A stretch of DNA of 34,901 bases from an uncultured Lachnoclostridium sp. (GTDB lineage: Bacteria; Bacillota; Clostridia; Lachnospirales; Lachnospiraceae). The stretch's first letter is position 1. Every line of letters begins with the position of its first letter. The translations under genes and the position numbers were made by a program. The DNA lies in the NCBI GenBank assembly GCA_947565985.1, contig CANOID010000017.1, positions 1 to 34,901 on the forward strand. Reading direction: 5' to 3'. Below are positions 1-34,901 of this stretch, one piece after another. The notes beneath the pieces are model-generated. The model saw nothing but the letters and a program-made list of their open reading frames with translations. It was not told the origin of the DNA and made no database searches.

Positions 1-1
1 T

Positions 2-12506: not shown

Positions 12507-12530
12507 TTTTCTACTCCTTTTTTTAATTAA

Positions 12531-12560: not shown

Positions 12561-12588
12561 AGTCTATATTAAAAACATTTTGTCTGAT

Positions 12589-13422: not shown

Positions 13423-13469
13423 AATCATTAATCCTTTCTGGTTAGTGCATAACCATTAATATATATTAT

Positions 13470-13610: not shown

Positions 13611-13618
13611 ACAAGCTA

Positions 13619-15854: not shown

Positions 15855-15922
15855 GAAATATCCCTCCTTTTAGCCAATGTATATGTATTTTGTATAGTTA
15901 ATTTGTATTAGATAAAGTTTAT

Positions 15923-15940
15923 AATACATAACAATACATA
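15923..15940. repeat. 10-bp-phased AATACATA direct repeat upstream of the minus-strand lacI
   Basis: AATACATA occurs at 15923-15930 and 15933-15940, one helical turn apart, within a segment rich in TGTAT/ATACA words between the two divergent regulators. It may be a protein binding site, or simply low-complexity AT-rich DNA. Confidence 0.3.
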
Positions 15941-16023
15941 GTTTACCATATCTAAATTCTTATTAGAAGTATGAATTTTACATAAAATTTAATATTATTA
16001 TTAGAGAAATATCTATATAGTGA

Positions 16024-16050
16024 AAAGCACGCATAGTACTTGCGTGTTTT
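16024..16050. promoter_or_regulatory. inverted repeat before the plus-strand lacI
   Basis: CACGCA (16028-16033) pairs with TGCGTG (16041-16046) over a 7-base loop, extended by AAAG/TTTT with one G-T pair. TTGCGT (16040-16045) could be a -35 with TACCAT 17 bases on. The left arm contains GCACGCAT, the inverse of the ATGCGTGC word in the two twin promoters. It could be an operator for autoregulation; a terminator is less likely because no gene ends just upstream. Confidence 0.5.
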
Positions 16051-16113
16051 ATGAAATTATGATACCATATTCTTAAAACATCACGTGTGAAAATGGTGAT
16101 AAGGAGATAGATT

Positions 16114-17130: not shown

Positions 17131-17142
17131 ATATTATTTTTT

Positions 17143-17167
17143 AAGCTCTGCTGTTGCAGAGCTTTTT
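17143..17167 (+). terminator. rho-independent terminator of the second LacI gene
   Basis: AAGCTCTGC (17143-17151) and GCAGAGCTT (17156-17164) form a 9-bp stem with a 4-base loop and a run of seven Ts. Confidence 0.93.
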
Positions 17168-17172
17168 TTAAG

Positions 17173-17233
17173 AAAGCGTGTGAAAAAGTATTGCACACTA
17201 AAACGATGCGTGCTATAATTTATTTATAAAGTA
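17173..17233 (+). promoter_or_regulatory. twin promoter 1, driving the sensor operon
   Basis: TTGCAC (17191-17196) and TATAAT (17214-17219) are 17 bases apart, 56 bases before the lipoprotein start. The spacer ends with ATGCGTGC. GTGTG (17178-17182) and CACAC (17194-17198) form a dyad over the -35. About 60 bases are nearly the same as at 25288-25348. Confidence 0.85.
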
Positions 17234-17274
17234 AAATACAAAAACACACACCAAAAATTTATTATAGAAAGATA

Positions 17275-19952: not shown

Positions 19953-19989
19953 ACTATACAGTTAGTAGAGGAGATAGGGATAGGTTAGA

Positions 19990-21561
19990 ATGAAAAAAGT
20001 AATATTAGTAGACGATGATTTTTTGGTGAGAAGTTATTTAAAGATGCTATCATCTTGGCAAAAGGCAGGATATGAGGTAGTAGCCGATGTACGAGATGGC
20101 AAAGAGGCTCTTGATGCACTTGATACTATAGAAGCAGACCTTGTTATTACAGATATTTCTATGCCTTTGATGGATGGTATCCAGATGATTAAGAAAATAC
20201 GAAAATATAACCAAACATTATATATTATAGTATTAAGTTGTCATGATGATTTTGATTATGTAAAAGACGCTATGAAAGAAGGTGCAGATGAATATATTCT
20301 AAAAAATTCGCTAAATGAAGATACTCTTTTAAAACTGCTTTATACAACTACAGAAAAAATAGAGAAAAAAAGAAATGATTCTGAGACTAATAAACAGAGT
20401 AAGCGGATGTATAAAGATGAAGTGCAGAATATGAAACAGAAGTATATATTCTTTAACCAGCTTCTTTCTGGCACACATTCAGAGGAAGAACTTGAAGTTA
20501 TGCGTGTAAAGGCTGGAATTGGTGCAAGATTCTATAACAGTGCAGTTATTGTAATCGGCATGAAAGATAGAAATAGTCAGATAGATGAAAATGTTTTTCA
20601 AAAGGAGCAGGAGTGCCAGCTTTTTTTACAAAAGGTAACATTAGTTAAGAATGATTTTAATCAAGAGATGGAAATTCTTTATCTTGGATATGGAATATTT
20701 TGTTGTTTTATTGATTTTTCTAATATGCACAGGCAAAGTTTAATGCATCAAATTCTGACAAGTATTGCATCTTCTTGTTATATGATTTGTGAATCTGAAG
20801 AAAACAAGTACGATGTCGCTGTGAGCAGTATATGTATAGGGAGACAGTCAGTCAGACAGTCATACCAGCAGGCAAGGACAATGCTTAAACTTGTATTGTA
20901 TGAAAAAAAAGGCATTTTATACTACAGTCCAGAAAAAAAGACAGGAAATACTCTTCCAGAAGCTGCAAAAAATTTTTTAAGGAATTTAGATAAATATTGT
21001 GACAGGGGAGATTTGCACAAAGCCTTGAAAGAATGTCATCGAGTAGTAAAGTCATTTATCAGTGAGCATACAGATAGCAGGATTGTTTTTCAGTGGCTTC
21101 ACAATATAGAACAGATGATAGAACTTCCTGAAGATTATGACTATAGCAGCATAGACGGAATTGAACAAGTACAAAGTAGATTGGAGAATGCGATAAGTAC
21201 TTTATTTGGAAATCATTTAATAGAAATTCCTGAACAGTTAAGCATTCCAGTGCATAATGCAGTTTTGTATATATTACAAAATTACCGCAGCCAGATAGGG
21301 TTAAATGAAGTAGCAGAAGCAGTAGGGTTAAATTCAGCATATCTTAGCTATCTTTTCAGTCAGGAAATGGGAGTAGGATTTTCAACTTTTTTAATGGAAC
21401 AGAGACTTTTATATGCAAAAAAGCTTTTGGCAGAAACTGAATTAAAAGTTTGTGAAATTGCAGAAAATGCGGGTTTTAATGATTACCATTATTTTTCTAA
21501 GGCATTTAAAAAAGCGTGTGGAATGAGTGCAGCAGAATATCGGAAGAAAACTAGGGCATAG
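19990..21561 (+). CDS. YesN-type response regulator with AraC DNA-binding domain
   Basis: This 523-residue protein has an N-terminal receiver domain (acidic D8-D10, phosphoacceptor D55 in ITDISMPLMDG, S83, K105). A long middle region precedes a C-terminal AraC-type double helix-turn-helix (about 420-520, with IGLNEVAEAVGLNSAYLSYLF and the AraC signature ending AENAGFNDYHYFSKAFKKACG). This YesN layout pairs with YesM-type kinases. It probably activates genes for uptake and breakdown of the sensed ligand. The nearest downstream candidate is the iolE-idhA-transporter operon, whose promoter region has spaced CCAAAAA repeats. A strong terminator follows the gene. Confidence 0.93.
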   Translation: MKKVILVDDDFLVRSYLKMLSSWQKAGYEVVADVRDGKEALDALDTIEADLVITDISMPLMDGIQMIKKIRKYNQTLYIIVLSCHDDFDYVKDAMKEGADEYILKNSLNEDTLLKLLYTTTEKIEKKRNDSETNKQSKRMYKDEVQNMKQKYIFFNQLLSGTHSEEELEVMRVKAGIGARFYNSAVIVIGMKDRNSQIDENVFQKEQECQLFLQKVTLVKNDFNQEMEILYLGYGIFCCFIDFSNMHRQSLMHQILTSIASSCYMICESEENKYDVAVSSICIGRQSVRQSYQQARTMLKLVLYEKKGILYYSPEKKTGNTLPEAAKNFLRNLDKYCDRGDLHKALKECHRVVKSFISEHTDSRIVFQWLHNIEQMIELPEDYDYSSIDGIEQVQSRLENAISTLFGNHLIEIPEQLSIPVHNAVLYILQNYRSQIGLNEVAEAVGLNSAYLSYLFSQEMGVGFSTFLMEQRLLYAKKLLAETELKVCEIAENAGFNDYHYFSKAFKKACGMSAAEYRKKTRA

Positions 21562-21784: not shown

Positions 21785-22684
21785 ATGTTTAATAAAGAAA
21801 AAGTAAAACTGGGGATTGCCCCAATAGCATGGACTAATGATGATATGCCAGATCTTGGAAAAGAAAACACATTTGAGCAGTGTATTAGTGAGATGGCACT
21901 GGCTGGTTTTACAGGTTCCGAGGTAGGTAATAAGTATCCAACAGATACAGAAGTATTAAAGAAAGCATTAGAACTTCGTGGAATGGAAATCTGTAACCAG
22001 TGGTTTTCATGTTTCCTGATTACCAAGCCTTTTGAAGAAGTAGAAAAAGAATTCAGAAACCAGCTTGCGTACCTAAAAACTATGGGAGCAAAGATAATTG
22101 GGGCTTCTGAGCAGAGTCACAGTGTACAGGGTATGACAGATACTCCAGTTTTTGGACATAAGTATGTGATGAATGATAAGGAATGGGATATTTTCTGCAA
22201 AGGTATGGACAGACTTGGAAAGATTGCAAAAGATGAATATGGTATTGCACTTACATTTCATCATCATATGGGAACAGTTGTACAGGATGAAGATGAAGTT
22301 GAACGCATGATGGCAAATACTAATCCTGAATATGTCAGCCTGCTTTTTGACACAGGGCATTTTGCATATTGTGGAGTTGACCCTTTAAAAATGGTAAAGA
22401 AATATGCCAACCGTATAAAGCATGTACATCTAAAAGATATCCGCAAAGATGTGGTTGAGAAAGTAAAAGCAGAGAATTTAAGCTTTTTAGATGGTGTAAG
22501 AATGGGGACGTTTACAGTACCTGGAGATGGCAGTATTGATTTTGAGCCGATTTTTAAAGTATTAGAGGAAAGTGGATATGAAGGATATATGCTAGTAGAA
22601 GCAGAACAGGACCCTGCAAAAGCAAATCCTTTAGAATATGCTATAAAAGCAAGGAAGTTTATAGCAGAGAAAACCGGATTATAA
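21785..22684 (+). CDS. iolE: inosose dehydratase, second copy
   Basis: This 299-residue paralogue of the iolE at 11610 also makes trihydroxycyclohexane-dione from a keto-inositol. The same landmarks are present: GIAPIAWTNDDMPDLGKENT, GSEVG, CNQWFSCFLI, SEQSHSVQG, FHHHMGT, LFDTGH, HVHLKD, FTVPGDGSIDF and VEAEQDPAKANP. Differences cluster in the SEQS/IQG loop and the helices, so the substrate isomer may differ from that of the first copy. AGGAGGA precedes the start. It leads an operon with an IdhA-type dehydrogenase (32 bases later) and a GPH symporter. Confidence 0.94.
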   Translation: MFNKEKVKLGIAPIAWTNDDMPDLGKENTFEQCISEMALAGFTGSEVGNKYPTDTEVLKKALELRGMEICNQWFSCFLITKPFEEVEKEFRNQLAYLKTMGAKIIGASEQSHSVQGMTDTPVFGHKYVMNDKEWDIFCKGMDRLGKIAKDEYGIALTFHHHMGTVVQDEDEVERMMANTNPEYVSLLFDTGHFAYCGVDPLKMVKKYANRIKHVHLKDIRKDVVEKVKAENLSFLDGVRMGTFTVPGDGSIDFEPIFKVLEESGYEGYMLVEAEQDPAKANPLEYAIKARKFIAEKTGL

Positions 22685-22716: not shown

Positions 22717-23727
22717 ATGGTAACAGTAGGAATCATAGGTGCAGGCAGAATTGGAAAGGTACATGTAGAGAGCATTTGTACACAGGTTAAAAATGCAAAG
22801 GTAAAGACACTCGCGGACCCATTTATTAATGATGATACAGAATCATGGGCAAAAAATATGGGTGTTGAAAAGGTTACAAAGGATTATCATGAAATTCTGA
22901 CTGACCCAGAAATTAATGCAGTATTGATTTGTTCATCTACAGATACACATTCTCCAATTTCCGTAGAAGCAATTAAAGCGGGAAAACACGTTTTTTGTGA
23001 AAAACCAATTGACCATGATATAGAAAAAATACAGGAAGTTATCGATGCATTAAAAACTAGTAATGTAAAGTACCAAGTTGGTTTTAATCGTCGTTTTGAC
23101 CACAATTTTGAGGCAGTACAGAGAGCAGTTGCAGAAGGTAAAATTGGTGATACACACTTGATAAAGGTAACTTCAAGAGACCCTGAGCCTCCCTCAGCAG
23201 AATATGTAAAGGTATCAGGAGGTATGTTCCTTGATATGACAATACATGATTTTGATATGGTGCGTTTTCTTGCAGGTTGTGATGCAGAGGAAGTGTATGT
23301 AGAGGCCGCAGTATTGGTTGACCCAGCAATTGGAGAGGCAGGGGATGTAGATACTGCAGTTATTACTCTTAAAATGGAAAATGGAGCTATTGCTGTAATT
23401 GATAATTCCAGAAAGGCAGTCTATGGATATGACCAGAGAGCAGAAGTATTTGGCTCAAAAGGAATGGTAGCGACATCAAATGATACAGCTTCTGCTGCTG
23501 TAGTTAGTAATGCAGATGGCATAACTGGTGAAAAGCCATTATATTTCTTCCTTGAGCGCTATATGGCAGCTTATGCAAAAGAAATTAACTGTTTTATTGA
23601 AGCTATAGAGAATAATACAGATACTCCTCTTGGTGTTATGGATGGTCTTAAACCAGTACTTATGGGCATTGCAGCAAAGAAGTCTTTAGATGAACACCGC
23701 CCAGTCAAAATTTCAGAGATTGTATAA
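22717..23727 (+). CDS. IdhA-type inositol 2-dehydrogenase
   Basis: This 336-residue Gfo/Idh/MocA oxidoreductase resembles rhizobial inositol dehydrogenase IdhA more than Bacillus IolG. It has GIIGAGRIGKVH (5-16), CSSTDTHS, EKPIDHD (the conserved lysine), VGFNRRFDHNF, TSRDPEPPSAEYVKVSGG, DMTIHDFDMVRFL (catalytic D and H), and NSRKAVYGYDQR. It probably oxidises myo-inositol or another isomer such as scyllo- or D-chiro-inositol to the keto form, feeding the iolE product beside it. The isomer cannot be read from sequence. AAGGAGG precedes the start. The next gene begins 33 bases later. Confidence 0.9.
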   Translation: MVTVGIIGAGRIGKVHVESICTQVKNAKVKTLADPFINDDTESWAKNMGVEKVTKDYHEILTDPEINAVLICSSTDTHSPISVEAIKAGKHVFCEKPIDHDIEKIQEVIDALKTSNVKYQVGFNRRFDHNFEAVQRAVAEGKIGDTHLIKVTSRDPEPPSAEYVKVSGGMFLDMTIHDFDMVRFLAGCDAEEVYVEAAVLVDPAIGEAGDVDTAVITLKMENGAIAVIDNSRKAVYGYDQRAEVFGSKGMVATSNDTASAAVVSNADGITGEKPLYFFLERYMAAYAKEINCFIEAIENNTDTPLGVMDGLKPVLMGIAAKKSLDEHRPVKISEIV

Positions 23728-23760
23728 AAAATTGTATGATATTTGAAAGGCAGGAGGTTT

Positions 23761-25146
23761 ATGGAAAAAGAAGAGAATAGCAAAAGAGGGAAGTTAAGCT
23801 GGGGGACAAAAATTGCTTATGCTGGAGGAGATGTGGCATGTAATGTAATTTTTGGTATGGTAGGGACACTTCTTACTTTGTTCTATACCGATTATGTTGG
23901 TATCAATCCAGCAACGGTAGGAATGGTTATGCTTATAAGTCGTTTATTTGATGGTTTCTCTGATATGGTTATGGGAATTATTGTAGAAAAGACAAATTCA
24001 AAATGGGGAAAGTCAAGACCATGGATTTTATGGATGAGCGTGCCATATGCATTATCAGCAGTCCTACTGTTTACTGTACCACATACAGAAACAATGTTGC
24101 AGTCAGTCTACATATTTGTAACTTATAATTTCTGTACAACCCTATGTTACACAGGTTTAAACCTTCCTTATGGAAGCCTTTCGGCAATGATGACAAGAGA
24201 ATCCAAAGAACGTGATATGTTGAGTGTTGTAAGAATGGGTCTTTCGCCATTGGGCAGGATTATGGCTGTTACATTTACACTTCCCCTTGTAAAGATATTT
24301 GGTGATACCCAGTCAGCTTGGGTTAAGACGATGAGCATATGGGCATCAATTGCTTTAGTTTTATTGATTATCTGTTTTGTGAAATGTGAAGAAACTGTAA
24401 AAATTGATGTAAAGCCAGAAAAATTAAAAGTACCAATTAAAAAAGCTTTTCAGGCATTAGTAATAAATCAGTATTTTTGGGCAGTACTGGTATTGTGGAT
24501 GCTTCAAAGCGTATCCTTTGGTATATCTGGGACTATCCTTCCATATTATTGTAAATATATTTTTAACAATGATACATGGATGTATAGTGCATTGTATCTA
24601 ACTGAAACTATAGCATTGGTTATTTGTATATTTTTGTGTGCACCTTTGATACGTAAGTATGGCAAAAGGAATATAGCTCTTGTGGGAGCAATAATTGCCG
24701 CTATATCGCAGCTTGCTTTCCTGTTATATCCTTATAATTTTACAGGTATGGTTGCAAGCTGTATAGGCAGGGCTATTGGACTTGCACCATTAAATGCTGC
24801 TGTGTTTGGCATGATTGGCGATGTAGTAGAATTTGGTCAGTGGAAAACACATATAAGACAAGAAAGTTTTATCTTTGCGGGAGGTTCTATCGGAACAAAA
24901 GTAGGTTCAGGAGTTGCATCCGCTGCAATGACAGGTCTTCTTTCTGCTGCTGGATATATAAGCTCTACAGCAGCAGAAGTAAAGCAGCCAGAACAAGCAT
25001 TGAATATGATAGTGCGAATATATGAATTTGGTCCATTAATTGTTGCTGTGATTGCAATTATAACATTATTTTTATATAGATTAGATACCCAGTACGATTC
25101 GATTATGAATGAACTTAGGCAAAGAGAATCAAGAGGTGAATTATAA
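23761..25146 (+). CDS. GPH-family cation symporter, probable inositol or sugar carrier
   Basis: This 461-residue protein of the glycoside-pentoside-hexuronide:cation symporter family has about 12 transmembrane segments. The N-terminal AYAGGDVACNVIFGM motif and the DGFSDMVMGIIVEKTNSKWGK loop (split here around the conserved D and K) are typical of MelB-like carriers. The open frame begins six codons earlier (23743), but GGAGGTTT just before ATG 23761 fixes the start. As the third gene of the iolE-idhA operon it probably imports an inositol isomer or an inositol glycoside. A strong terminator follows. Confidence 0.88.
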   Translation: MEKEENSKRGKLSWGTKIAYAGGDVACNVIFGMVGTLLTLFYTDYVGINPATVGMVMLISRLFDGFSDMVMGIIVEKTNSKWGKSRPWILWMSVPYALSAVLLFTVPHTETMLQSVYIFVTYNFCTTLCYTGLNLPYGSLSAMMTRESKERDMLSVVRMGLSPLGRIMAVTFTLPLVKIFGDTQSAWVKTMSIWASIALVLLIICFVKCEETVKIDVKPEKLKVPIKKAFQALVINQYFWAVLVLWMLQSVSFGISGTILPYYCKYIFNNDTWMYSALYLTETIALVICIFLCAPLIRKYGKRNIALVGAIIAAISQLAFLLYPYNFTGMVASCIGRAIGLAPLNAAVFGMIGDVVEFGQWKTHIRQESFIFAGGSIGTKVGSGVASAAMTGLLSAAGYISSTAAEVKQPEQALNMIVRIYEFGPLIVAVIAIITLFLYRLDTQYDSIMNELRQRESRGEL

Positions 25147-25160: not shown

Positions 25161-25195
25161 TGGCAAAGCCCTGCTATAGCAGGGCTTTGCTTTTG
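25161..25195 (+). terminator. rho-independent terminator of the second iolE operon
   Basis: GCAAAGCCCTGC (25163-25174) and GCAGGGCTTTGC (25179-25190) form a perfect 12-bp stem with a TATA loop, followed by TTTT. Confidence 0.95.
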
Positions 25196-25384: not shown

Positions 25385-26419
25385 ATGAAATATATAGAAT
25401 TTGATTCATCCAGACCGATGGATATTGTATTGCTTGGCAGGGTAGCAATAGATTTTAACCCAGCATATAACGACCAAGTAAAAGAAGAATTTAAACCACT
25501 CAAAAAAGTACATATATTTGAAAAGTATGTAGGAGGTTCACCAGCTAATATCGCAGTAGGTGTTACAAGACACGGACTTAAAGCTGGCTTTATTGGCAAA
25601 GTGTCTGATGACCAGTTTGGTGATTATGTGGTCGATTATTTTGATGAGCAGGGAATTGATACATCACATATTACAAGGTGTACTGGTGGAGAAAAGCTTG
25701 GATTAACTTTTACTGAAATGCTTTCACCAAAGGAAAGTAGTATACTTATGTACCGCAATAGTATTGCGGACTTACAGCTTCACGTAGATGATATTGACGA
25801 AGAATATATTAAAAATGCAAAAGCACTTTTAGTTTCTGGAACAGCACTTGCAGAGAGCCCATCAAGAGAAGCAGCACTCAAGGCGGTAATGCTTGCTAAA
25901 AAGAACCAGACAAAAATTATTTTTGATATTGATTACAGAGAATATAACTGGAAAAATAGTGATGAAATTGCAATCTATTATTCTACAGTAGCAAAAGAAG
26001 CAGACATAATTATGGGTTCAAGGGAAGAATTTGACTTGACTGAAAAGTTAATTAAGCCCGATATGACAGATGAAGAAAGTGCCGCACTTTGGCAAGGATA
26101 TAATGCAAAAATTGTTGTAATTAAACATGGAATGCAAGGTTCTACTGCATACACTTGCGACGGACAAAAGTTTAGTATTAAGCCATTCCCAGTTACAGCA
26201 AGAAAAGGTTTTGGAGGCGGAGATGGATATGGCTCAGGGTTCTTATATGGATTGTATCAAGGCTGGGAAGTAATTGACTGCTTGGAGTTTGGTTCAGCAG
26301 AAGCTTCTATGATGGTTAGGAGCAATAATTGTTCTGATTCTCTTCCGGGACCTGATGAGGTACACGCTTTTATTAAAGAAGAAAAAGAGCAATTTGGTGA
26401 AATGATTGCAAGAGTTTAG
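25385..26419 (+). CDS. iolC: 5-dehydro-2-deoxygluconokinase
   Basis: IolC phosphorylates 5-dehydro-2-deoxy-D-gluconate at the 6 position with ATP. The 344-residue protein is a PfkB/ribokinase-family member: N-terminal DIVLLGRVAIDF, the GGSPANIAVG glycine-rich motif (50-59), and the C-terminal anion-hole/catalytic motif GFGGGDGYGSGF (275-286, catalytic D280). The usual GAGD reads GGGD, which fits the family pattern. GGAGG precedes the start. It is the first gene of a nine-gene or longer operon under twin promoter 2, with iolD 18 bases downstream. Confidence 0.95.
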   Translation: MKYIEFDSSRPMDIVLLGRVAIDFNPAYNDQVKEEFKPLKKVHIFEKYVGGSPANIAVGVTRHGLKAGFIGKVSDDQFGDYVVDYFDEQGIDTSHITRCTGGEKLGLTFTEMLSPKESSILMYRNSIADLQLHVDDIDEEYIKNAKALLVSGTALAESPSREAALKAVMLAKKNQTKIIFDIDYREYNWKNSDEIAIYYSTVAKEADIIMGSREEFDLTEKLIKPDMTDEESAALWQGYNAKIVVIKHGMQGSTAYTCDGQKFSIKPFPVTARKGFGGGDGYGSGFLYGLYQGWEVIDCLEFGSAEASMMVRSNNCSDSLPGPDEVHAFIKEEKEQFGEMIARV

Positions 26420-26437
26420 ATAAGGAGAGTAAGAGAT

Positions 26438-28369
26438 ATGGCTAAAACAGAAAGATTGACAACTGCACAGGCGATTGTGAAATTTTTAGATAATCAGTAT
26501 GTTTCTATGGATGGTGTGGAGACAAAATTTGTGAAAGGATTCTTTACCATATTTGGGCATGGTATTGCAGTTGGACTTGGCGAAGCACTTGATTCCAATG
26601 CAGGAAGTTTAAAGGTATTACAAGGAAGAAATGAACAGGGAATGTGCCATGTGGCAATTGCATTTGCAAAACAGAACGGACGCAAAAGCATTATTCCGTG
26701 TGCATCGTCGGTAGGTCCGGGAGCTGCTAATATGGTTACAGCTTGTGCTACAGCCACTGTAAATAATATACCACTTTTGGTATTTCCTGCTGACACTTTT
26801 GCGTCACGCCAGCCAGACCCAGTGCTACAGCAGTTAGAGCAGAGCAGCAGCCTTGCAGTTACAACAAATGATGCATTTAGACCAGTTTGTAAATACTGGG
26901 ATAGAATTACAAGACCAGAGATGATTATGACAGCTTTAATTAATGCAATGCGTGTACTGACAGACCCGGCTGAGACAGGTGCGTGCTGTATTGCACTTTG
27001 TCAGGATGTAGAGGGTGAATCCTATGATTTCCCAGAGTATTTCTTTACAAAACGTGTGCATAAGATTACAAGACCTGTGGCAGTAGAAGAAGAACTTGAA
27101 GATATTGTAGAAGTTATTGCAGGAGCAAAGAAACCTATTATAGTTGTAGGAGGCGGTGTACGTTATTCAGAAGCAGGAGAAACTGTTGAGAAGTTCTGTG
27201 AGGAGTTTAAGATTCCTTTCGGAGAAAGCCAAGGAGGTAAAAGTGCATGTAAGTCAAGCCATCCATACTGTCTTGGTGGAATTGGTGTGACAGGAACATA
27301 CGCTTCTAACATTATTGCAAAGGATGCAGATGTTGTAATCGCTATTGGTTCAAGATTATCTGATTTTACAACAAGCTCAAAGCGTTTGTTTAAAAATGAA
27401 AATGTAAAGTTTGTTACTATAAATTACAGCCGTTTCCATGCATATAAAATGGATGCTGTAAAGGCTGTTGGAGATGCGAAAGTCACAGTAGAAGCATTAG
27501 CAGAAAAATTGAGAACAAGAGGTTATGTCTCTTCTTATACAAATGAAATACAACAGGCAAAGAGTGCATGGGATAAAGAGATGGAAAGGCTTGCAGAAAT
27601 TGAGTATACTGGCGAAGATTTTGAACCAATTATCAAGGCAAGAGACCCAAGAACTATTCCAGAATTTGTAAAGCTTACAGATGGAAAGATTACACAGACG
27701 GCAGCACTAGCAGCGATACGCAGAGTGATTGATGAGGATGCAACGATTATCACTGCTGGCGGTTCACTTCCAAGCTGTATGCAAAGAGTGTGGACAACAG
27801 ATAAACGTGGTGGATACCATGCAGAGTATGGCTATTCATGCATGGGTTATGAAGTTGCTGCTACACTTGGTGTTAAGTTTGCAGAACCTGATAATGAAGT
27901 GTACTGCGTAGTCGGAGATTCAAGTTTCCAGATGCTTCACAGTGAGATTATGACGATTATGCAGGAACGTCAGAAAGTAAATATTATTATATTTGATAAC
28001 TGTGGATTTGGCTGCATCAACAATCTAGAGATGAATCATGGAATTGGAAGTATTGCGACAGAATTTCGCTATACAGACGGTAAAAAGCCATGTGGTGAGC
28101 TTATACCAGTTGATTATGCCAAGATTGGTGAAGGTTATGGCTTAAAAACTTATACCTGTAAAACAATTGCTGAACTAGAAGCAGCTCTTGAGGATGCAAA
28201 GAAACAGGATATTGCATGTCTATTTGATTTAAAGGTTATTCCAAAGACAATGACAGATGGATATGAATCATGGTGGAATGTAGGTCTTGCGGATACATCA
28301 ATAAAAGAGTCTGTAAGAAATGCATGGAAAGGCGTGCTTAAAGGCAGGAGTGAAGCAAGAAAATATTAA
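26438..28369 (+). CDS. iolD: 3D-(3,5/4)-trihydroxycyclohexane-1,2-dione acylhydrolase
   Basis: IolD is a thiamine-diphosphate enzyme that hydrolytically opens the ring of the iolE product to 5-deoxyglucuronate. The 643-residue protein has the family length. The three ThDP domains are visible: the N-terminal Pyr domain with catalytic glutamate E66 (GRNEQGM), a central domain with the AGAKKPIIVVGGGVRYS turn, and the C-terminal ThDP/Mg motif GDSSFQMLHSEI...IIIFDNCGFG (about 493-525). The HAEYGYSCMGYEVAA segment is characteristic of IolD among ThDP enzymes. AAGGAGA lies before the start; iolB follows after 59 bases. Confidence 0.96.
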   Translation: MAKTERLTTAQAIVKFLDNQYVSMDGVETKFVKGFFTIFGHGIAVGLGEALDSNAGSLKVLQGRNEQGMCHVAIAFAKQNGRKSIIPCASSVGPGAANMVTACATATVNNIPLLVFPADTFASRQPDPVLQQLEQSSSLAVTTNDAFRPVCKYWDRITRPEMIMTALINAMRVLTDPAETGACCIALCQDVEGESYDFPEYFFTKRVHKITRPVAVEEELEDIVEVIAGAKKPIIVVGGGVRYSEAGETVEKFCEEFKIPFGESQGGKSACKSSHPYCLGGIGVTGTYASNIIAKDADVVIAIGSRLSDFTTSSKRLFKNENVKFVTINYSRFHAYKMDAVKAVGDAKVTVEALAEKLRTRGYVSSYTNEIQQAKSAWDKEMERLAEIEYTGEDFEPIIKARDPRTIPEFVKLTDGKITQTAALAAIRRVIDEDATIITAGGSLPSCMQRVWTTDKRGGYHAEYGYSCMGYEVAATLGVKFAEPDNEVYCVVGDSSFQMLHSEIMTIMQERQKVNIIIFDNCGFGCINNLEMNHGIGSIATEFRYTDGKKPCGELIPVDYAKIGEGYGLKTYTCKTIAELEAALEDAKKQDIACLFDLKVIPKTMTDGYESWWNVGLADTSIKESVRNAWKGVLKGRSEARKY

Positions 28370-28428
28370 TTTGCTTATTACCTTTTAAAAGTTATAGATA
28401 GTACCAATAAAAAAGGAGGGACTTAATT

Positions 28429-29214
28429 ATGAGTGAAGTGTTTGGATATCCGCAATTTGATAATACAGGTGAAATGATTCTTACTACTTATGACAATGAG
28501 TATAAAGCAATGATGATGGATATCCGTGTGTACCATATGAATGAAGGCGAAGTAAGAAAATTCTGTAGAGAAGATGAAGAAGTTGCAGTTCTTCTTTTAT
28601 CTGGCAATATTGGCTATACATGGGAAGGCAATACAAAGACCGCCACCAGAAAGAATGTATTTACTGAAGGACCTTGGTGTGTTCATGTATGTGGTGGCAT
28701 AAGTGTGGAAGTAACTGCCAATTCAGAGTCTGAAATACTTGTACAGTGTACACATAATAATAGAAAATTTGCAAGTCATTTATATACCCCAAAAGATGCA
28801 CCATGGAAATATTCAAGTGTTGGCAAATTTGGCAATGTAGCAAAGCGCCGTGTTAATACAATATTTGACCATGATATTTCTCCAGAATCTAACATGGTTC
28901 TTGGAGAGGTGCTTAATGACAGGGGTAACTGGTCAGGATATTTGCCTCACAGACATCCACAGCCAGAGACATACTTTTTCAAATTTGATAGACCAGAGGG
29001 ATTTGGTGCAAGTTTTGTAGGTGATAGGGTATTTAAGAGTGTTGAAAACAGTTTTTCTGCTATACCGGGCGGTGAACTTCATCCACAGGCAGCAGCACCG
29101 GGATTTGAGATGTATACTTGTTGGATGATACGCCATATTGATGGTAATCCATGGCTTCAGACTGACCGCTGTGAAGATGAGCGTTATACATGGATGCATG
29201 ATGCAGATTTTTAG
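28429..29214 (+). CDS. iolB: 5-deoxy-glucuronate isomerase
   Basis: IolB isomerises 5-deoxy-glucuronate to 5-dehydro-2-deoxy-gluconate, the substrate of IolC. The 261-residue bicupin matches family length. The C-terminal cupin has the metal site H174-x-H176...E180 (PHRHPQPETYFFKF), and the domain ends with GELHPQAAAPGFEMYTCWMIRH, where the second metal-site histidine and family signature lie. AAGGAGGG precedes the start. It lies between iolD and the iron-type alcohol dehydrogenase, 14 bases before the latter. Confidence 0.94.
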   Translation: MSEVFGYPQFDNTGEMILTTYDNEYKAMMMDIRVYHMNEGEVRKFCREDEEVAVLLLSGNIGYTWEGNTKTATRKNVFTEGPWCVHVCGGISVEVTANSESEILVQCTHNNRKFASHLYTPKDAPWKYSSVGKFGNVAKRRVNTIFDHDISPESNMVLGEVLNDRGNWSGYLPHRHPQPETYFFKFDRPEGFGASFVGDRVFKSVENSFSAIPGGELHPQAAAPGFEMYTCWMIRHIDGNPWLQTDRCEDERYTWMHDADF

Positions 29215-29228
29215 AAAGGGGAGTAAAT

Positions 29229-30380
29229 ATGGCAAGAGAATTTATTATACCAGGACAGATTATAACAGGAGCAGGTGCTTTAGATATGGCAGAGAAAACT
29301 TTAGGGCAGCTAGGGAGGAAAGCTCTAATTGTGACTGATAAAGTTATGATTGAGCTTGGCAACTGTGCAAAAGTAGAACAAGCACTGAAAAATCAAGGTA
29401 TAAACTATTCTATTTATTCAGAAATAGTAGGTGAGCCTACAGATATTATGATTGAAAATGGGTTAAAACAGTATAAAGAAGAAAACTGTGATTTTCTTAT
29501 AGCTCTTGGTGGTGGAAGCCCGATTGATTCAATGAAAGCAATTGGTTCTCTAGTAAAAAATGGCGTAAATATTTCTGATTATATGGGTAAGATTATAGAT
29601 GTGGAGATGCCCCCGATGGCTGCTATACCAACAACCGCGGGAACAGGTTCGGAAGCAACCCAATTTACAATTATTACAGATACCAAAAAAGACATTAAAA
29701 TGCTGTTAAAAGGTAAGGTTCTAATGCCAACACTTGCAATAAGTGATCCACAGTTCACTATGACAGCTCCTCCAAAAATTACAGCGGCAACCGGACTTGA
29801 TGCCCTCTGCCATGCTGTAGAAGCTTATACTTCAAACAAAGCACAGACATTATCAGATACTTTTGCACTATCTGCTGTAAAACGTATCTTTAAATATCTG
29901 CCAATAGCTTTCCACAATGGTAAAGATGAAGAAGCAAGAACCGAGATGGCAGTAGCAGCACTTGAGGCAGGTATAGCATTTAACAATGCTTCTGTAACAT
30001 TAATTCATGGAATGAGTCGCCCGATTGGTGCATTGTTCCATGTAGCCCATGGTCTTTCAAATGCAATGCTTATTAAAGAGTGTTTAAGTTATGCACTTAG
30101 TGGTGCATATGAGTGTTTCGCAGAACTTGGTAGAAGTATTGGTGTTGCATCTGTTAAGGACTCAGATAAAGATGCAAGTGAAAAATTCTTAGACGCAGTA
30201 ATTAAGCTTACAGAAGAATTAGAAACTCCAACATTAGCGGAATATGGAATTGATAAAGAAGTATTTTTTAATGTTATTGAAAAAATGGCCTATGATGCGA
30301 TGGAGAGCGGCAGTCCACAGAATACAAGAAGAAAAGTTACACAGTCTGATATAGAACAGATGTATAAAAACCTCTGGTAA
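29229..30380 (+). CDS. iron-containing alcohol dehydrogenase, probable 3-hydroxypropionate dehydrogenase
   Basis: This 383-residue group III (iron-dependent) alcohol dehydrogenase has the NAD(P)-binding GGGSPIDSMKA (94-104), PTTAGTGSEAT (134-144) and the metal ligands D191, H195, H260 and H274. Members of this family reduce small aldehydes, such as butanal, lactaldehyde and succinate semialdehyde. Its place between iolB and iolJ suggests that it reduces malonate semialdehyde, released by IolJ, to 3-hydroxypropionate while regenerating NAD. That substrate is inference from context; a general aldehyde or keto-inositol reductase role is possible. AAAGGGGAG precedes the start, and the stop lies 36 bases before iolJ. 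Confidence 0.88.
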   Translation: MAREFIIPGQIITGAGALDMAEKTLGQLGRKALIVTDKVMIELGNCAKVEQALKNQGINYSIYSEIVGEPTDIMIENGLKQYKEENCDFLIALGGGSPIDSMKAIGSLVKNGVNISDYMGKIIDVEMPPMAAIPTTAGTGSEATQFTIITDTKKDIKMLLKGKVLMPTLAISDPQFTMTAPPKITAATGLDALCHAVEAYTSNKAQTLSDTFALSAVKRIFKYLPIAFHNGKDEEARTEMAVAALEAGIAFNNASVTLIHGMSRPIGALFHVAHGLSNAMLIKECLSYALSGAYECFAELGRSIGVASVKDSDKDASEKFLDAVIKLTEELETPTLAEYGIDKEVFFNVIEKMAYDAMESGSPQNTRRKVTQSDIEQMYKNLW

Positions 30381-30416
30381 AAAATTGTAATCTTTATAGA
30401 AGAAGGAGGAAAATAT

Positions 30417-31271
30417 ATGGCTTTAGTAAAAATGAAAGTACTGTTAGAGCAAGCAGTGAAAGAAAAAAGAGGTGTGGGGGCATTTAGCGTAGGCAATATG
30501 GAAATGGTAAAAGGTGCTGTTAAAGCAGCAGAAGAATTAAATACGCCATGTATTCTACAAATTGCAGAAGTTCGTCTGAAACATTCTCCGCTTGCGTATA
30601 TGGGACCTATGATGGTACAGGCAGCAAGAGAGGCAAAAGTTGATATAGCTGTACATCTTGACCATGGACTTACCTTAGATATTGTGAAAAAAGCATTAGA
30701 GCTTGGTTTTACTTCTGTTATGTTTGATAGTTCTGGCTATCCTTTTGAGGAAAATATTGAGCGTACAAAAGAAGTAGTGCAATTAGCAGAAAAGTATGGT
30801 GCAACTGTAGAAGCAGAGCTCGGACTGGTTGGCGGAAGTGAGGACGGAAGTAGTGACCATGGAATACAATGTACAAATCCTGATGATGCAAAAGTATTTT
30901 GTGAGCGTACAGGCATTGATGCACTAGCAGTAGCTATTGGGAATGCACATGGTAATTATCCAGTAGCTCCTAAACTAGCATTTGATGTACTTGAAGATAT
31001 ACATAAAAAAACAGGTGTGCCATTAGTGCTTCATGGTGGAAGTGGCATTACAGATGCAGATTTTAGAAAAGCAATTTCTCTTGGAATTGTAAAAGTTAAT
31101 ATTGCTACAGCAAGTTTTAACAGTCTCACAAAAAAGGCAGAAGATTATCTTAAATCAGAAGGTTCACATAATTATTTTAGTCTGAATGAAGCTATGGTAA
31201 GCGGAACTTATGAAAATGTAATACATCATATGGAAGTCTTTAATTGTAAAAAAGCACTGGAGGAAATTTAA
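30417..31271 (+). CDS. iolJ: 6-phospho-5-dehydro-2-deoxygluconate aldolase
   Basis: IolJ cleaves the IolC product to dihydroxyacetone phosphate and malonate semialdehyde. The 284-residue class II aldolase has HLDHG (80-84; D82, H83), EAELG (E134), GNAHGNY (H178), LHGGSG (H206) and NIAT (228-231). It is related to the fba at 595 but differs in the substrate loop (SGYPFEEN, GGSEDGSSDHG), as expected for IolJ. Position within iolC-iolD-iolB makes IolJ the best call over fructose-bisphosphate aldolase. AGGAGG precedes the start. Its stop overlaps the HAD gene's ATG by one base (TAATG). Confidence 0.92.
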   Translation: MALVKMKVLLEQAVKEKRGVGAFSVGNMEMVKGAVKAAEELNTPCILQIAEVRLKHSPLAYMGPMMVQAAREAKVDIAVHLDHGLTLDIVKKALELGFTSVMFDSSGYPFEENIERTKEVVQLAEKYGATVEAELGLVGGSEDGSSDHGIQCTNPDDAKVFCERTGIDALAVAIGNAHGNYPVAPKLAFDVLEDIHKKTGVPLVLHGGSGITDADFRKAISLGIVKVNIATASFNSLTKKAEDYLKSEGSHNYFSLNEAMVSGTYENVIHHMEVFNCKKALEEI

Positions 31272-31948
31272 TGCCTGTTATAAATATCAGGGAAATAAAA
31301 GCAGTAATTTTTGACCAAGATGGCTTGATGTTTGATACTGAACGTATATCAAAAGAAGCTTGGCACGTTGTAGGTGGACAAATGGGAATACAATTAGATG
31401 AATCCTTTCTTAGTACCATTCGAGGGGCAAACGCAGCAGATGTAAGTAGACGACTTTTGGAAAAATTTGGAGACCAGATAGATACAGAAGAGTTGCGTAA
31501 AAGGAAGTATAAATATTTTAGAAAGATTCTTAAAGAGAGGGAACTTCCCATAAAGCCAGGTTTATATGAACTGCTAAATTATTTGGAAAAGAACGGCTAT
31601 AAGATTGCGTTAGCAACTTCATCTACAAGGGAGTATTCAATAGACAATCTTAAACGGGCAGGAATTGAAAACTATTTCAAATATATGGTCACCGGAAATA
31701 TGGTAAAACGGGCAAAGCCAGACCCAGAACTGTTTTTAAAGGCTGCCATGGAGATGGATGTATCTCCATCACAGTGTATGGTACTTGAAGATAGTATAAA
31801 TGGGGTGGAAGCAGGAGTGCGTGGCGGCTTTTTAACAATTATGGTACCAGACCTTACAATGCCAAATAAGATACTTAACTGGCATCCACACCAAATTTGT
31901 GCTTCACTGCTTGAAGTAAGGGATTTAATAGCAGAATCAGCAAAATAG
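31271..31948 (+). CDS. HAD-superfamily phosphatase/phosphoglucomutase-like protein
   Basis: This 225-residue HAD hydrolase of the beta-phosphoglucomutase/GS1 type has the nucleophile motif DQDGLMFDTE (D15, D17), a cap domain, motif II ALATSS (about 116-121), the lysine in RAKPDPELF (about 140-148) and motif IV VLEDSINGVEAG. It is fully formed and translationally coupled to iolJ. In an inositol operon it may dephosphorylate inositol phosphates or a sugar-phosphate side product, but no reaction can be assigned from sequence. HAD genes are not part of the standard Bacillus iol set, so this is an addition to the core pathway. Confidence 0.85.
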   Translation: MPVINIREIKAVIFDQDGLMFDTERISKEAWHVVGGQMGIQLDESFLSTIRGANAADVSRRLLEKFGDQIDTEELRKRKYKYFRKILKERELPIKPGLYELLNYLEKNGYKIALATSSTREYSIDNLKRAGIENYFKYMVTGNMVKRAKPDPELFLKAAMEMDVSPSQCMVLEDSINGVEAGVRGGFLTIMVPDLTMPNKILNWHPHQICASLLEVRDLIAESAK

Positions 31949-31976
31949 GGAAAAATAAATATAAGGAGTAGAACAA

Positions 31977-32768
31977 ATGGAAATGAAAACATACAATAAC
32001 CTTTTAGTAGAAGTGGAAGATGGTATTGCAGTTATCACTATTAATCGTCCAAAATCTTTAAATGCGTTGAATAGTGAAACATTGGCAGAACTTGGAGATA
32101 TTGCTTCTACTATAGAAAAATCAAAAGAAGTTAAGGTTGTTATATTGACAGGAGCAGGACAAAAGGCATTCGTTGCAGGAGCTGATATTTCTGAAATGGT
32201 AAATGCGACTGCACAAGAAGGCAGGGCTATGGCACTTCTAGCAGCAGAAACATTTAACTGTTTAGAAAATATGCCACAAGTTACAATTGCAGCCGTAAAT
32301 GGCTACGCCCTTGGTGGTGGCTGTGAGATTTCAATGGCTTGTGATATTCGTATAGCTGCTGATAATGCAAAATTTGGACAACCAGAAGTAAATTTAGGAA
32401 TTTTGCCAGGTTTTGGTGGTACTCAGAGACTTCCTAGACTTGTTGGCAAGGGTCGTGCAAAAGAGTTAATTTTTACGACTGACCAGATTGATGCCGAAGA
32501 AGCATATCGTATAGGTCTTGTAAATAAAGTTGTGCCACAGACAGAACTGCTTGATTACTGCAAGTCAATGGCAAAAAAGATTATGTCAAAGGCAAGCTAT
32601 GGTGTTACTCTTGCAAAACAGGCTATAAATACTGGGATGGACACAGACCTTGAAAGTGGATTGAAATTAGAGGCAAATCTATTTGGACTTGCCTTTGCAA
32701 CACATGATAAAGCAGAAGGTATGCAGGCATTTCTCGAAAAAAGAAAGGCAGACCTTACTGATTTTTAA
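31977..32768 (+). CDS. crotonase-family enoyl-CoA hydratase, probable 3-hydroxypropionyl-CoA dehydratase
   Basis: This 263-residue crotonase has the oxyanion-hole segments AFVAGADISEM (64-74) and NGYALGGGCEISM (108-120), and the two catalytic glutamates E117 and E137 (FGQPEVNLGILPGFGGT). It is very similar in pattern to clostridial Crt, the 3-hydroxybutyryl-CoA dehydratase. In this operon, between a CoA-transferase and an acyl-CoA dehydrogenase and downstream of a malonate-semialdehyde-producing aldolase, the best substrate is 3-hydroxypropionyl-CoA, giving acryloyl-CoA. Butyrate-pathway crotonase is the alternative. AAGGAG lies before the start. The next gene starts 16 bases later. Confidence 0.9.
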   Translation: MEMKTYNNLLVEVEDGIAVITINRPKSLNALNSETLAELGDIASTIEKSKEVKVVILTGAGQKAFVAGADISEMVNATAQEGRAMALLAAETFNCLENMPQVTIAAVNGYALGGGCEISMACDIRIAADNAKFGQPEVNLGILPGFGGTQRLPRLVGKGRAKELIFTTDQIDAEEAYRIGLVNKVVPQTELLDYCKSMAKKIMSKASYGVTLAKQAINTGMDTDLESGLKLEANLFGLAFATHDKAEGMQAFLEKRKADLTDF

Positions 32769-32784
32769 ATTTGGAGGGATTCAT

Positions 32785-34338
32785 ATGTCTAAAGTTAATA
32801 TTATTACGGCATTAGAAGCAGCTTCCATGGTAGAGGATAGCATGACAGTTACTGCCAGCGGATTTGTAGCCAGTGCTATGCCAGAGGCATTGACCAAGGC
32901 TTTAGAACAACGCTTTTTGGAAACAGGTTCACCAAAAAATCTGACACTTTTTTATGCTGCTGCACAAGGCAATAGAGATGGCAGCGGAGCTGACCATTTT
33001 GCACATGAAGGAATGACAAAAAGAGTAATCGGAGGTCATTGGAATATGGTTCCAGAGCTTGGCAAGATGGTACTTGAAAATAAAATCGAAGGCTACAATT
33101 TACCACAGGGTACTCTATCACAGCTTTTACGTGATATTGCTGGACACAGAGTTGGCACTATAACCCATGTGGGCTTAAATACATTTGCGGACCCACGTAT
33201 TGAAGGCGGAAAATTAAATTCTATTTCTACAGAGGATTTAGTAGAAGTAATAAATATTCTTGGAGAAGAAAAACTTCTATATAAGGCGTTTCCAATTGAT
33301 ATAGGCTTTATCCGTGGTACTTATGCGGACGAACATGGCAATGTTACTATGGAGCATGAAGTTTCTTCGCTAGAAGCTACTTCTATAGCTCAGGCGGTTA
33401 AAAACAGTGGCGGAAAGGTTATAGTACAGGTTGAAAAAGTCGTTGAAAATGGTTGTCTTGACCCTAAACTTGTAAAAATTCCGGGAATATATGTAGATGC
33501 TGTTGTAGTCTGCCAAGACCCGAAAAACCATGAGCAATGTGTAGGTTGTGAATATGATGGCTCTATGGCAGGTGAGTTTAGAGTACCTTTAAGCAGTCTG
33601 CACTATCCAAAGCTATCTGCAAAGAAAGTTATTGGCAGAAGGGCAGCTATGGAACTCAAAAAAGATTCTGTTGTCAATTTAGGAATTGGAATTCCTGAAT
33701 ATATTTCTATGGTTGCCAATGAAGAGGGCATTGGGGATTATATGACACTTACAGTAGAAGCAGGTCCAGTAGGCGGTGTTCCACAGGGTGGTGCAAAGTT
33801 TGGAGGTTCGGTAAATCCAGAAGCAATTTTAGACCAGCCATACCAGTTTGACTTTTATGATGGTGGTGGTGTGGATTATGCATTTTTAGGGCTTGCACAA
33901 GCAGATAAGGAAGGCAATATAAATGTAAGCAAGTTTGGTCCAAGGATTGCTGGATGTGGCGGTTTTGTCAATATTACACAGAATGCCAAAAGAGTATTTT
34001 TCTGTGGAACGTTTACTGCAGGTGGACTGGAAGTAACATTTGAAGATGGCAAATTGCATATTGTAAAAGAAGGAAAGTCGAAGAAGTTTCTTGAACACGT
34101 AGAACAGATTACATTTAGTGGAGCTTATGCCAATAAAACAGGACAGCCAGTTCTTTATATTACAGAGCGTGCCGTTTTTGAACTGCGTAAAGATGGTGTA
34201 TATTTAACAGAAGTTGCACCTGGTATAGACATTCAGACACAGATTGTTGACCAGATGGGTTTTGTTCCAAAAATGGATAGACAGCCTAAATTGATGGATG
34301 GACGAATTTTTAAAGATAAGTTGATGGGACTTAAATAA
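32785..34338 (+). CDS. family I CoA-transferase (propionate/acetate CoA-transferase type)
   Basis: This 517-residue fused alpha-beta CoA-transferase belongs to the YdiF/propionate CoA-transferase group. The catalytic glutamate is E325 in TLTVEAGPVGG. The following GVPQGGAKFGGS, the GGGVDYAFLGLAQ segment, and NVSKFGPRIAGCGGFVNITQ and FFCGTFTAGG blocks are those seen in clostridial propionate CoA-transferase. It would charge 3-hydroxypropionate with CoA taken from propionyl-CoA or acetyl-CoA, and release propionate at the end. The open frame extends 34 codons into the crotonase gene, but GGAGGG at 32773-32778 fixes ATG 32785. Substrate preference is inferred. Confidence 0.92.
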   Translation: MSKVNIITALEAASMVEDSMTVTASGFVASAMPEALTKALEQRFLETGSPKNLTLFYAAAQGNRDGSGADHFAHEGMTKRVIGGHWNMVPELGKMVLENKIEGYNLPQGTLSQLLRDIAGHRVGTITHVGLNTFADPRIEGGKLNSISTEDLVEVINILGEEKLLYKAFPIDIGFIRGTYADEHGNVTMEHEVSSLEATSIAQAVKNSGGKVIVQVEKVVENGCLDPKLVKIPGIYVDAVVVCQDPKNHEQCVGCEYDGSMAGEFRVPLSSLHYPKLSAKKVIGRRAAMELKKDSVVNLGIGIPEYISMVANEEGIGDYMTLTVEAGPVGGVPQGGAKFGGSVNPEAILDQPYQFDFYDGGGVDYAFLGLAQADKEGNINVSKFGPRIAGCGGFVNITQNAKRVFFCGTFTAGGLEVTFEDGKLHIVKEGKSKKFLEHVEQITFSGAYANKTGQPVLYITERAVFELRKDGVYLTEVAPGIDIQTQIVDQMGFVPKMDRQPKLMDGRIFKDKLMGLK

Positions 34339-34401
34339 GCAAAATTAGTGGTTTATCAAAAATTATTTATTATATACATATTAAGTTAAGGAGGATTTAT
34401 T

Positions 34402-34901
34402 ATGGATTTTCAGTTATCAGAAAAACGTATGGCTTTACAAAAATCAGTTAGGGAGTTTGCAGAAAAAGAGCTTGCTCCTGGGGTAATCGAACGAGATGCA
34501 ACTGGTGAATATCCAGTAGAGCTTTATAAAAAAATGGGAGAAATGGGACTTATTGGACTTCCATATGAAAAGGAGTACGGCGGAGCAGGTGGAGATTATC
34601 TAGATTATGCTATTGCAGTAGAGGAAATCTCCAAAGTTGACGCTTCCGTAGGCATTTCGTATTCAGTTTCTACATCACTTTACGGTGGTAGCATTGCAAA
34701 TGGTGCTTCAGAAGAACAGAAAAAGGAATTTCTTCCAGATGTACTTTCTGGAAAATCATTTGGTTCATTTGGACTTACAGAGCCGAATGCAGGCTCTGAT
34801 GCAGGTGGATGCATTACTACTGCTGAGAAAAAGGGTGATAAGTACATATTAAATGGATTAAAATGCTTTAATACTAATGGACCTCTTTCTGACCACTTTG
34901 C
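34402..34901 (+). CDS. acyl-CoA dehydrogenase, probable acryloyl-CoA reductase (partial)
   Basis: The gene starts at ATG 34402 after TAAGGAGGA and runs off the right edge. The first 166 residues are an acyl-CoA dehydrogenase N-terminus: DFQLSEKRMALQKSVREFA, GLIGLPYEKEYGGAGGDYLDYA, SVSTSLYG and the FAD/substrate signature FGLTEPNAGSDAGG, with KCFNTNG just before the edge. In clostridia such proteins work with electron-transferring flavoproteins as butyryl-CoA or acryloyl-CoA reductases. Following a CoA-transferase and a crotonase, this one most simply reduces acryloyl-CoA to propionyl-CoA. etfB/etfA would be expected just beyond the window. Confidence 0.92.
   Translation, partial: MDFQLSEKRMALQKSVREFAEKELAPGVIERDATGEYPVELYKKMGEMGLIGLPYEKEYGGAGGDYLDYAIAVEEISKVDASVGISYSVSTSLYGGSIANGASEEQKKEFLPDVLSGKSFGSFGLTEPNAGSDAGGCITTAEKKGDKYILNGLKCFNTNGPLSDHF

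Follow-up and report, generated by a model that had tools for sequence, protein, structure and literature searches.

We analyzed the entire contig CANOID010000017.1 (labeled G000:C17) of assembly GCA_947565985.1 (185 contigs, 87% complete), from an uncultured Lachnoclostridium sp.; this stretch of 34,901 nucleotides (nt) is here called the window. From 25385 to 34901, nine genes lie on the + strand in the order iolC, iolD, iolB-like, iron-type alcohol dehydrogenase (Fe-ADH), iolJ, HAD, crotonase, CoA transferase, and acyl-CoA dehydrogenase (ACAD). The initial annotation had proposed that this row joins inositol breakdown to a reductive 3-hydroxypropionate (3-HP)/acryloyl-CoA route to propionate. 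The order, common strand, and tight spacing that it described were confirmed: the successive gaps are 18, 59, 14, and 36 bp, a 1-bp overlap, and 28, 16, and 63 bp, the last being the largest. The row from iolC to ACAD is probably cotranscribed. It contains no permease gene, nor does it contain thl or hbd.

The proposed gene identities held in part. iolC and iolD scored above curated cutoffs, but the iolB-like protein fell below its own cutoff (Table 1), and the ACAD fell below that for acryloyl-CoA reductase (see below). The iolB-like gene has the same position, after iolD, in many relatives. The profile matched by the iolJ-type gene, NF005288, is named for class II fructose-bisphosphate aldolase, and the iolJ role is taken from the operon context. 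The CoA transferase probably starts at the ATG at 32785; the longest open reading frame (ORF), from 32683, would overlap the crotonase gene.

All active sites had been described as intact. Residues D191, H195, H260, and H274 of the Fe-ADH, which we take to be metal ligands, are invariant across 27 aligned rows. E117 and E137 of the crotonase, presumably catalytic, align with 5z7r, a short-chain enoyl-CoA hydratase that is the closest solved sequence (300 bits), and the CoA transferase carries E325, presumably its active-site glutamate. Thus, the description is good for these three enzymes but not for the ACAD; its presumed catalytic Glu is in the motif YEGTNEIQ, which lies on contig C114, beyond the window end, and so its active site could not be seen in the window.

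Table 1. Features of the inositol locus in the window
Feature	Position	Strand	Evidence
iolE, inosose dehydratase, upstream unit	21785..22684	+	TIGR04379, 416.5 bits, cutoff 290
iolG, inositol 2-dehydrogenase, upstream unit	22717..23727	+	TIGR04380, 472.6 bits, cutoff 355
GPH-type cation symporter, likely inositol uptake	23743..25146	+	TIGR00792, 308 bits, cutoff 231
Perfect 14-bp inverted repeat between the iolE-iolG-symporter unit and the iolC operon	25163..25190	.	Inverted-repeat and terminator scan
iolC, 5-dehydro-2-deoxygluconokinase	25385..26419	+	TIGR04382, 379 bits, cutoff 300
iolD, trihydroxycyclohexanedione hydrolase	26438..28369	+	TIGR04377, 914 bits, cutoff 715
iolB-like protein	28429..29214	+	TIGR04378, E 2e-27, 96 bits, below cutoff 205
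Fe-ADH, proposed malonate-semialdehyde reductase (3-HP dehydrogenase)	29229..30380	+	No curated equivalog reached
iolJ-type class II aldolase, proposed products dihydroxyacetone phosphate (DHAP) and malonate semialdehyde	30417..31271	+	NF005288, 439 bits, cutoff 396
HAD-family phosphatase-like protein	31271..31948	+	Profile search
Crotonase, proposed 3-hydroxypropionyl-CoA dehydratase	31977..32768	+	PRK05809, 373 bits, below cutoff 394
Class I CoA transferase, OxcT/propionate CoA-transferase type	32785..34338	+	Profile search, tree
ACAD, first 166 residues, proposed acryloyl-CoA reductase	34402..34901	+	Cut at window end, rest on C114

The Fe-ADH as a gene of inositol operons

Relatives of the Fe-ADH were sampled closest first, each with up to 10 kb of flank on each side. 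Among the best 80 of 344 confirmed stretches, the gene stood directly after iolB in 53, and the fetched stretch contained an iol gene at >45% identity in 73. We also searched 200 genomes of the family, the window's own included, of which 26 have iolD. A full-length Fe-ADH of at least 60% identity was found in 11 genomes, all 11 with iolD, versus 15 iolD-positive genomes among the other 189 (P = 2e-11 by Fisher test; because the genomes are related, this test and those below overstate independence, and the identity thresholds were chosen after the lists were seen). Left out of this count was a broken 63% fragment, with one stop, in the iolD-negative genome G037. More distant copies (47 to 59%) occurred in 14 genomes, none of which had iolD at E ≤ 1e-150.

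Arg264 of the Fe-ADH is invariant in the 24 closest of the 27 aligned rows. The three distant rows have His at this position, as do the four best solved homologues, the alcohol-acting enzymes 8zrl, 8zwd, 3owo, and 3bfj. An arginine here would suit a carboxylated substrate. From its context, its co-occurrence with iolD, and Arg264, the Fe-ADH is the best candidate for the malonate-semialdehyde reductase.

Because the iolC-iolD-iolB-ADH order of Anaerostipes hominis fits the locus tags of Anaerostipes rhamnosivorans, the Fe-ADH probably corresponds, by gene order, to AR1Y2_1107. In the main texts, supplements aside, of the two papers on this species, we found no individual role for AR1Y2_1107: neither "alcohol dehydrogenase" nor "1107" occurs in one (PMC8355322), and "alcohol dehydrogenase" is absent from the other (PMC7618129). 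A literature search returned no link between an Fe-ADH and inositol or malonate semialdehyde in titles or the beginnings of abstracts.

Relatives of the crotonase, CoA transferase, and ACAD

Each of these three proteins falls in a supported clade with its counterpart in the A. hominis module. The crotonase clade (support of 100/100 in a tree of 27 rows) has eight members, the others being from A. hominis, Anaerostipes MSJ-23, genomes G126, G071, and G025, A. polymeriproducens (G082), and an Oscillibacter; the butyrate Crt of the window's own genome is elsewhere in the tree. The CoA transferase, 83% identical to that of A. hominis, is in a clade of 6 of 17 rows (97/98), and the N-terminal part of the ACAD is in a clade of 4 of 11 rows (99/96), apart from the genome's own Bcd. 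For the ACAD tree, 11 of 14 rows passed the length filter; MSJ-23, G025, and one butyrate row were dropped.

C4 chemistry is also conceivable, with a crotonase and an ACAD that the operon took over from butyrate metabolism. Their profiles do resemble butyrate-type enzymes, and in Lachnospiraceae B63 (locus L094, 6095-21148), a thl-crt-hbd-bcd-etf set (partly by eye) follows the iol-ADH genes. However, a thl-crt-hbd-bcd-etfBA set exists separately in the window's genome, on contig C56 (thl and hbd by eye), the row has neither thl nor hbd, and its crotonase and ACAD belong to clades other than those of the butyrate copies. We therefore regard C4 chemistry as very improbable; on the evidence of the trees, we rejected the view that this is simply a butyrate operon. 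The B63 locus is a lead of its own for the conversion of inositol to butyrate, which a 2025 review calls not fully characterized (PMC12482443).

In Clostridium sp. ASF356 and a near relative, the crotonase that adjoins iolJ belongs to a distant lineage and may have been recruited to this position independently. At that ASF356 locus (L096, 10001-12843), iolC, iolD, iolB, ADH, iolJ, and crotonase are together; elsewhere (L189), the same strain has a lactoyl-CoA-dehydratase-like cluster (by eye) with CoA transferase and ACAD/Etf, and the two loci may share their last steps.

Of 28 genomes in the genus, only that of the window had a close CoA transferase, which points to patchy gain or loss of the row. 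The same count, the state of the assembly (185 contigs, 87% complete), and the lower GC toward the left end (0.336 for 1-8900) would also fit an assembly or binning artifact that had put a foreign operon in the bin. But GC is 0.37 to 0.40 across the iol and propionate genes alike, the whole row is on one contig, and the nearest CoA-transferase relatives of known kinship are from the same family. Since patchy gain or loss suffices as an explanation, we give the artifact an almost negligible probability.

The C-terminal half of the ACAD was located at base 1 of C114 by using a close ACAD from G126 as the query. The ends of the two contigs share 35 identical bases, and the frame runs on across the junction to give a protein of 379 residues that includes YEGTNEIQ. 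Against the AcrC profile NF042972 (cutoff, 640 bits), the joined ACAD scored 465 bits, the A. hominis ACAD scored 451, and the genome's own Bcd scored 525. Because the Bcd outscores the ACAD, this profile does not discriminate acryloyl-CoA reductases, and we dropped it as proof of acryloyl-CoA specificity. In Anaerostipes MSJ-23 (L188, 6219-6986), the ACAD beside the CoA transferase and crotonase is in two short ORFs, perhaps because the gene is broken or because of a sequencing error.

An etfBA pair had been expected to follow the window. Instead, 284 bp past the ACAD stop, C114 encodes a single-chain electron transfer flavoprotein (ETF) of 401 residues (G000:C114, 959-2164; L185). Residues 1 to 234 matched all six EtfBs tried and none of six EtfAs, and the portion from about residue 255 matched the C-terminal part of all six EtfAs and no EtfB. 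By these half-by-half matches, the protein is EtfB joined to the FAD domain (domain II) of EtfA, without EtfA domain I. The nearest relatives of both halves are the pair beside the ACAD in the ASF356 cluster (32% and 56% identity). A search of 391 other genomes in the order gave no full-length relative with E ≤ 1e-55, and among the matches listed from the 200-genome family search, those in other genomes cover the C-terminal part only. The EtfBA pair seen in the window's genome is in the butyrate set on C56.

From inositol to propionate

We propose, with a probability of roughly 0.8, that the operon ferments myo-inositol to propionate by way of free 3-HP, with the Fe-ADH reducing malonate semialdehyde and the CoA transferase exchanging CoA. 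The gene identities (at the family level), layout, clade membership, and co-occurrence are observed; the substrates of every enzyme, the reaction order, and the redox partner are what we infer. IolG, IolE, IolD, IolB, IolC, and IolJ, with iolE and iolG supplied by the upstream unit, would split inositol into DHAP, which would go towards acetate, and malonate semialdehyde. The Fe-ADH would then convert malonate semialdehyde and NAD(P)H to 3-HP, the CoA transferase would swap CoA between propionyl-CoA and 3-HP, the crotonase would act as 3-hydroxypropionyl-CoA dehydratase, and the ACAD would act as acryloyl-CoA reductase. With a single CoA-exchanging enzyme, the acid would be activated and propionate released without ATP cost. 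The predicted sum is inositol to propionate, acetate, CO2, and H2 (or formate), for which C, H, and O balance by count and iolA is not needed.

That inositol breakdown is coupled here to a reductive 3-HP/acryloyl-CoA module, as initially proposed, is supported by the clades shared with Anaerostipes, by co-occurrence of the CoA transferase and the Fe-ADH with iolD, and by published labeling, proteomics, and 3-HP conversion. A. rhamnosivorans converts 13C-inositol to propionate, and its proteins AR1Y2_1104-1106, 1115-1117, and 1050-1052 are induced on inositol (PMC8355322). In a later description, 1104-1107 are the inositol operon and 1112-1117 are the 3-HP operon, and the organism converts 3-HP to propionate (PMC7618129). 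The 2025 review treats inositol to propionate as a fourth route to propionate and reports seven complete genomes among >10,000 (PMC12482443).

In the published scheme for A. rhamnosivorans, the order is different: CoA is added first, the CoA transferase converting malonate semialdehyde to 3-oxopropionyl-CoA, whose reduction gives 3-hydroxypropionyl-CoA, and acyl-CoA dehydrogenases (AR1Y2_1117 and the AR1Y2_1050-1052 complex) are placed in the reducing branch (PMC8355322). If this order held for the window, the substrate of the Fe-ADH would be the CoA ester or some other compound. However, the passages on this step mention neither an alcohol dehydrogenase nor a 3-hydroxyacyl-CoA dehydrogenase that would carry it out, and 3-oxopropionyl-CoA and 3-oxopropionate were both undetected (PMC8355322); free 3-HP is turned into propionate by A. 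rhamnosivorans, and AR1Y2_1112, 1113, and 1117 were later assigned to acryloyl-CoA reduction (PMC7618129). Because the window's operon encodes an alcohol dehydrogenase, and because the enzymes listed for that branch in the published text are limited to acyl-CoA dehydrogenases, a hydratase, and a CoA transferase, reduction of the aldehyde first is better supported, and we consider the CoA-first order distinctly unlikely.

The co-occurrence data bear on the fate of malonate semialdehyde. A CoA transferase of at least 60% identity was found in nine family genomes, seven of them with iolD (P = 9e-6). Among the 26 iolD-positive genomes, iolA was above its cutoff in 14, the Fe-ADH was present in 11, and the close CoA transferase was present in 7. 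iolA occurred in 1 of the 7 genomes with the CoA transferase versus 13 of the 19 without it (P = 0.026), a contrast that falls to P = 0.056 once the window's genome is removed. That genome, which is 87% complete, gave no match at E ≤ 1e-60 to iolA (malonate-semialdehyde dehydrogenase, TIGR01722), the enzyme of the Bacillus pathway. Four genomes (G039, G043, G136, and G194) have iolD and the Fe-ADH with neither iolA nor a close CoA transferase, and we predict that they excrete 3-HP. Four others (G010, G058, G080, and G081) combine iolD with the CoA transferase but lack both iolA and a close Fe-ADH copy; in G080, an HpaB-family protein is beside the CoA transferase, and there are similar ORFs, by eye, in the other three. 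The remaining two, G109 and G165, have none of the three genes. The G080 locus (L171, 8895-19901) is a composite of iolE, iolD, iolB, CoA transferase (60%), ACAD, EtfB, EtfA, an HpaB-family protein, and a GldA-type Fe-ADH; its EtfA is an AcrA equivalog above cutoff, and the HpaB-family protein may replace the crotonase as dehydratase.

The four genomes with iolD and the Fe-ADH but no iolA or close CoA transferase also fit another view, in which 3-HP (or another alcohol) from the Fe-ADH is an end product or a redox valve and the crotonase-CoA transferase-ACAD module, merely colocated with the iol genes, mainly scavenges external 3-HP or acrylate. So do the two genomes (G071 and G025) that have a close CoA transferase and no iolD. 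Mitsuokella excretes 3-HP from inositol, and A. rhamnosivorans takes it up; in coculture with the 3-HP producer, transcripts of 1112-1117 went up as much as 19-fold and those of 1104-1107 went down about 15-fold (PMC7618129). Since they changed in opposite directions, these two sets are not one regulon in A. rhamnosivorans. But in the window, the module follows iolJ and HAD codirectionally with small gaps, its row has no permease gene, unlike that of A. hominis, and inositol alone strongly induces the 1115-1117 proteins of A. rhamnosivorans (PMC8355322). On balance, we think scavenging as the main role is unlikely.

Several results nevertheless count against fermentation through free 3-HP by this operon, in addition to the limits of the Fisher tests, the weakened iolA contrast, and the coculture response. 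Seven of the 80 close Fe-ADHs have no nearby iol gene, including stand-alone copies in Dorea-like genomes, and two of the nine close CoA transferases are in the iolD-negative genomes G071 and G025. Mutual exclusion of the Fe-ADH and iolA was tested and not seen (iolA in 5 of 11 iolD-positive genomes with the Fe-ADH and in 9 of 15 without it; P = 0.69), and within these genomes the Fe-ADH and the CoA transferase were unlinked (3 of 11 versus 4 of 15; P = 1). Crotonases about 60 to 70% identical, without butyrate or CoA-transferase neighbors, are found in 19 family genomes; because of these stand-alone copies, this type of crotonase is not confined to the propionate module. The ACAD falls short of the acryloyl-CoA reductase cutoff, no normal etfBA pair is beside the operon, and A. 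rhamnosivorans converted 3-HP only with glucose present (PMC7618129). Finally, the substrates of all the enzymes are predictions from sequence.

Comparison with known systems and implications

The initial annotation noted that the principle was known from Anaerostipes and that the arrangement was worth comparing, and the comparison bore this out. We compared 105 Fe-ADH loci (25 from family genomes plus the 80 best relatives, with some overlap and many incomplete). The codirectional row including iolJ and HAD was seen in the window only, and the HAD gene had no match at E ≤ 1e-10 in these loci. Both a crotonase and a CoA transferase were near the Fe-ADH in one genome only, A. polymeriproducens, in which the module is on the other strand (L040 and L141 are the same record). 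In an Oscillibacter (L151), a crotonase of the same clade is directly after the ADH; because the contig then ends, a similar row is possible there.

The A. hominis order is iolC, iolD, iolB, ADH, four ORFs (plus one small opposite ORF), EtfB, EtfA, a permease-like gene, CoA transferase, crotonase, and ACAD, which matches the AR1Y2_1104-1117 cluster as described (PMC8355322, PMC7618129). Thus, the window resembles the A. rhamnosivorans pathway in its iolC-iolD-iolB genes, which in that species too are probably followed by the Fe-ADH, and, judged on the relative A. hominis, in the clades of the CoA transferase (OxcT clade), crotonase, and ACAD, the last two apart from the butyrate paralogues. 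iolB, iolC, iolD, iolE, iolG, and iolJ are all present, with the iolB-like gene below cutoff and iolJ named by context. In A. hominis, however, the module is about 10 kb from the ADH and has EtfB, EtfA, and the permease-like gene, with the CoA transferase and crotonase on the opposite strand and the ACAD divergent, whereas the window has a single codirectional row that contains iolJ and HAD, no permease gene, and, in place of a dedicated EtfB/EtfA pair, the single-chain ETF after its 284-bp gap.

Other systems are more remote. Mitsuokella jalaludinii also reduces malonate semialdehyde to 3-HP, but its reductase is annotated as 2-hydroxy-3-oxopropionate reductase (MJ_1291), not as an Fe-ADH, and the 3-HP is excreted (PMC7618129). 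The classical acrylate pathway, as in the ASF356 cluster L189, shares a class I CoA transferase and ACAD/Etf acting on acryloyl-CoA but is entered from lactate by a 2-hydroxyacyl-CoA dehydratase-like set (by eye), not from 3-HP by a crotonase; no lactoyl-CoA dehydratase subunits are among the genes of the row, the part of the genome that was searched for them. The 3-hydroxypropionyl-CoA dehydratase of Metallosphaera (PDB 5zai) is a homologue of the window crotonase (234 bits) but is from an archaeal carbon-fixation cycle. DddB, an alcohol dehydrogenase of dimethylsulfoniopropionate degraders, is tied to 3-HP metabolism in the opposite direction (PMC8163506). Its pathway and hosts are different.

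Upstream of the row, the inverted repeat before iolC has a terminator-like score on the − strand only. Promoter-like matches were at the level of chance in our scan (49 versus 44.3 expected), and a search for a LacI-type operator found no match. On the − strand at 8951-14623 are an SSF symporter, three TIM-barrel isomerase-like proteins, and a second iolG-like dehydrogenase of the chiro-inositol type (470 bits versus a cutoff of 540), a set that may serve other isomers of inositol. The interval separating the two inositol sets (14826-21561) encodes two regulators of the LacI type, the second of a kind that often precedes iolC in relatives, together with a sugar-binding protein, a histidine kinase, and an AraC-type response regulator.

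The pathway itself is already known; what is new is the compact layout and the enzyme assignment. The operon nominates a gene for the reductase and a different, testable order of reactions for the first reduction of the C3 branch. A broader view, to which we give about even odds, is that the iolB-linked Fe-ADH is an unrecognized malonate-semialdehyde reductase and that fermentation of inositol through free 3-HP is widespread in gut Firmicutes (Lachnospiraceae and records labeled Oscillospiraceae and Bacilli), some species excreting 3-HP and others, including the window's organism, carrying it on to propionate. This would make the published 3-oxopropionyl-CoA step incorrect, and the last reduction in the window's organism may be fed by a minimal single-chain ETF without EtfA domain I. 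3-HP is described as antimicrobial and as exchanged between gut species (PMC7618129). If the broader view is true, Mitsuokella should be only one of many gut bacteria that make 3-HP from inositol, and predicting propionate production from genomes would require the Fe-ADH and the CoA transferase together as markers.

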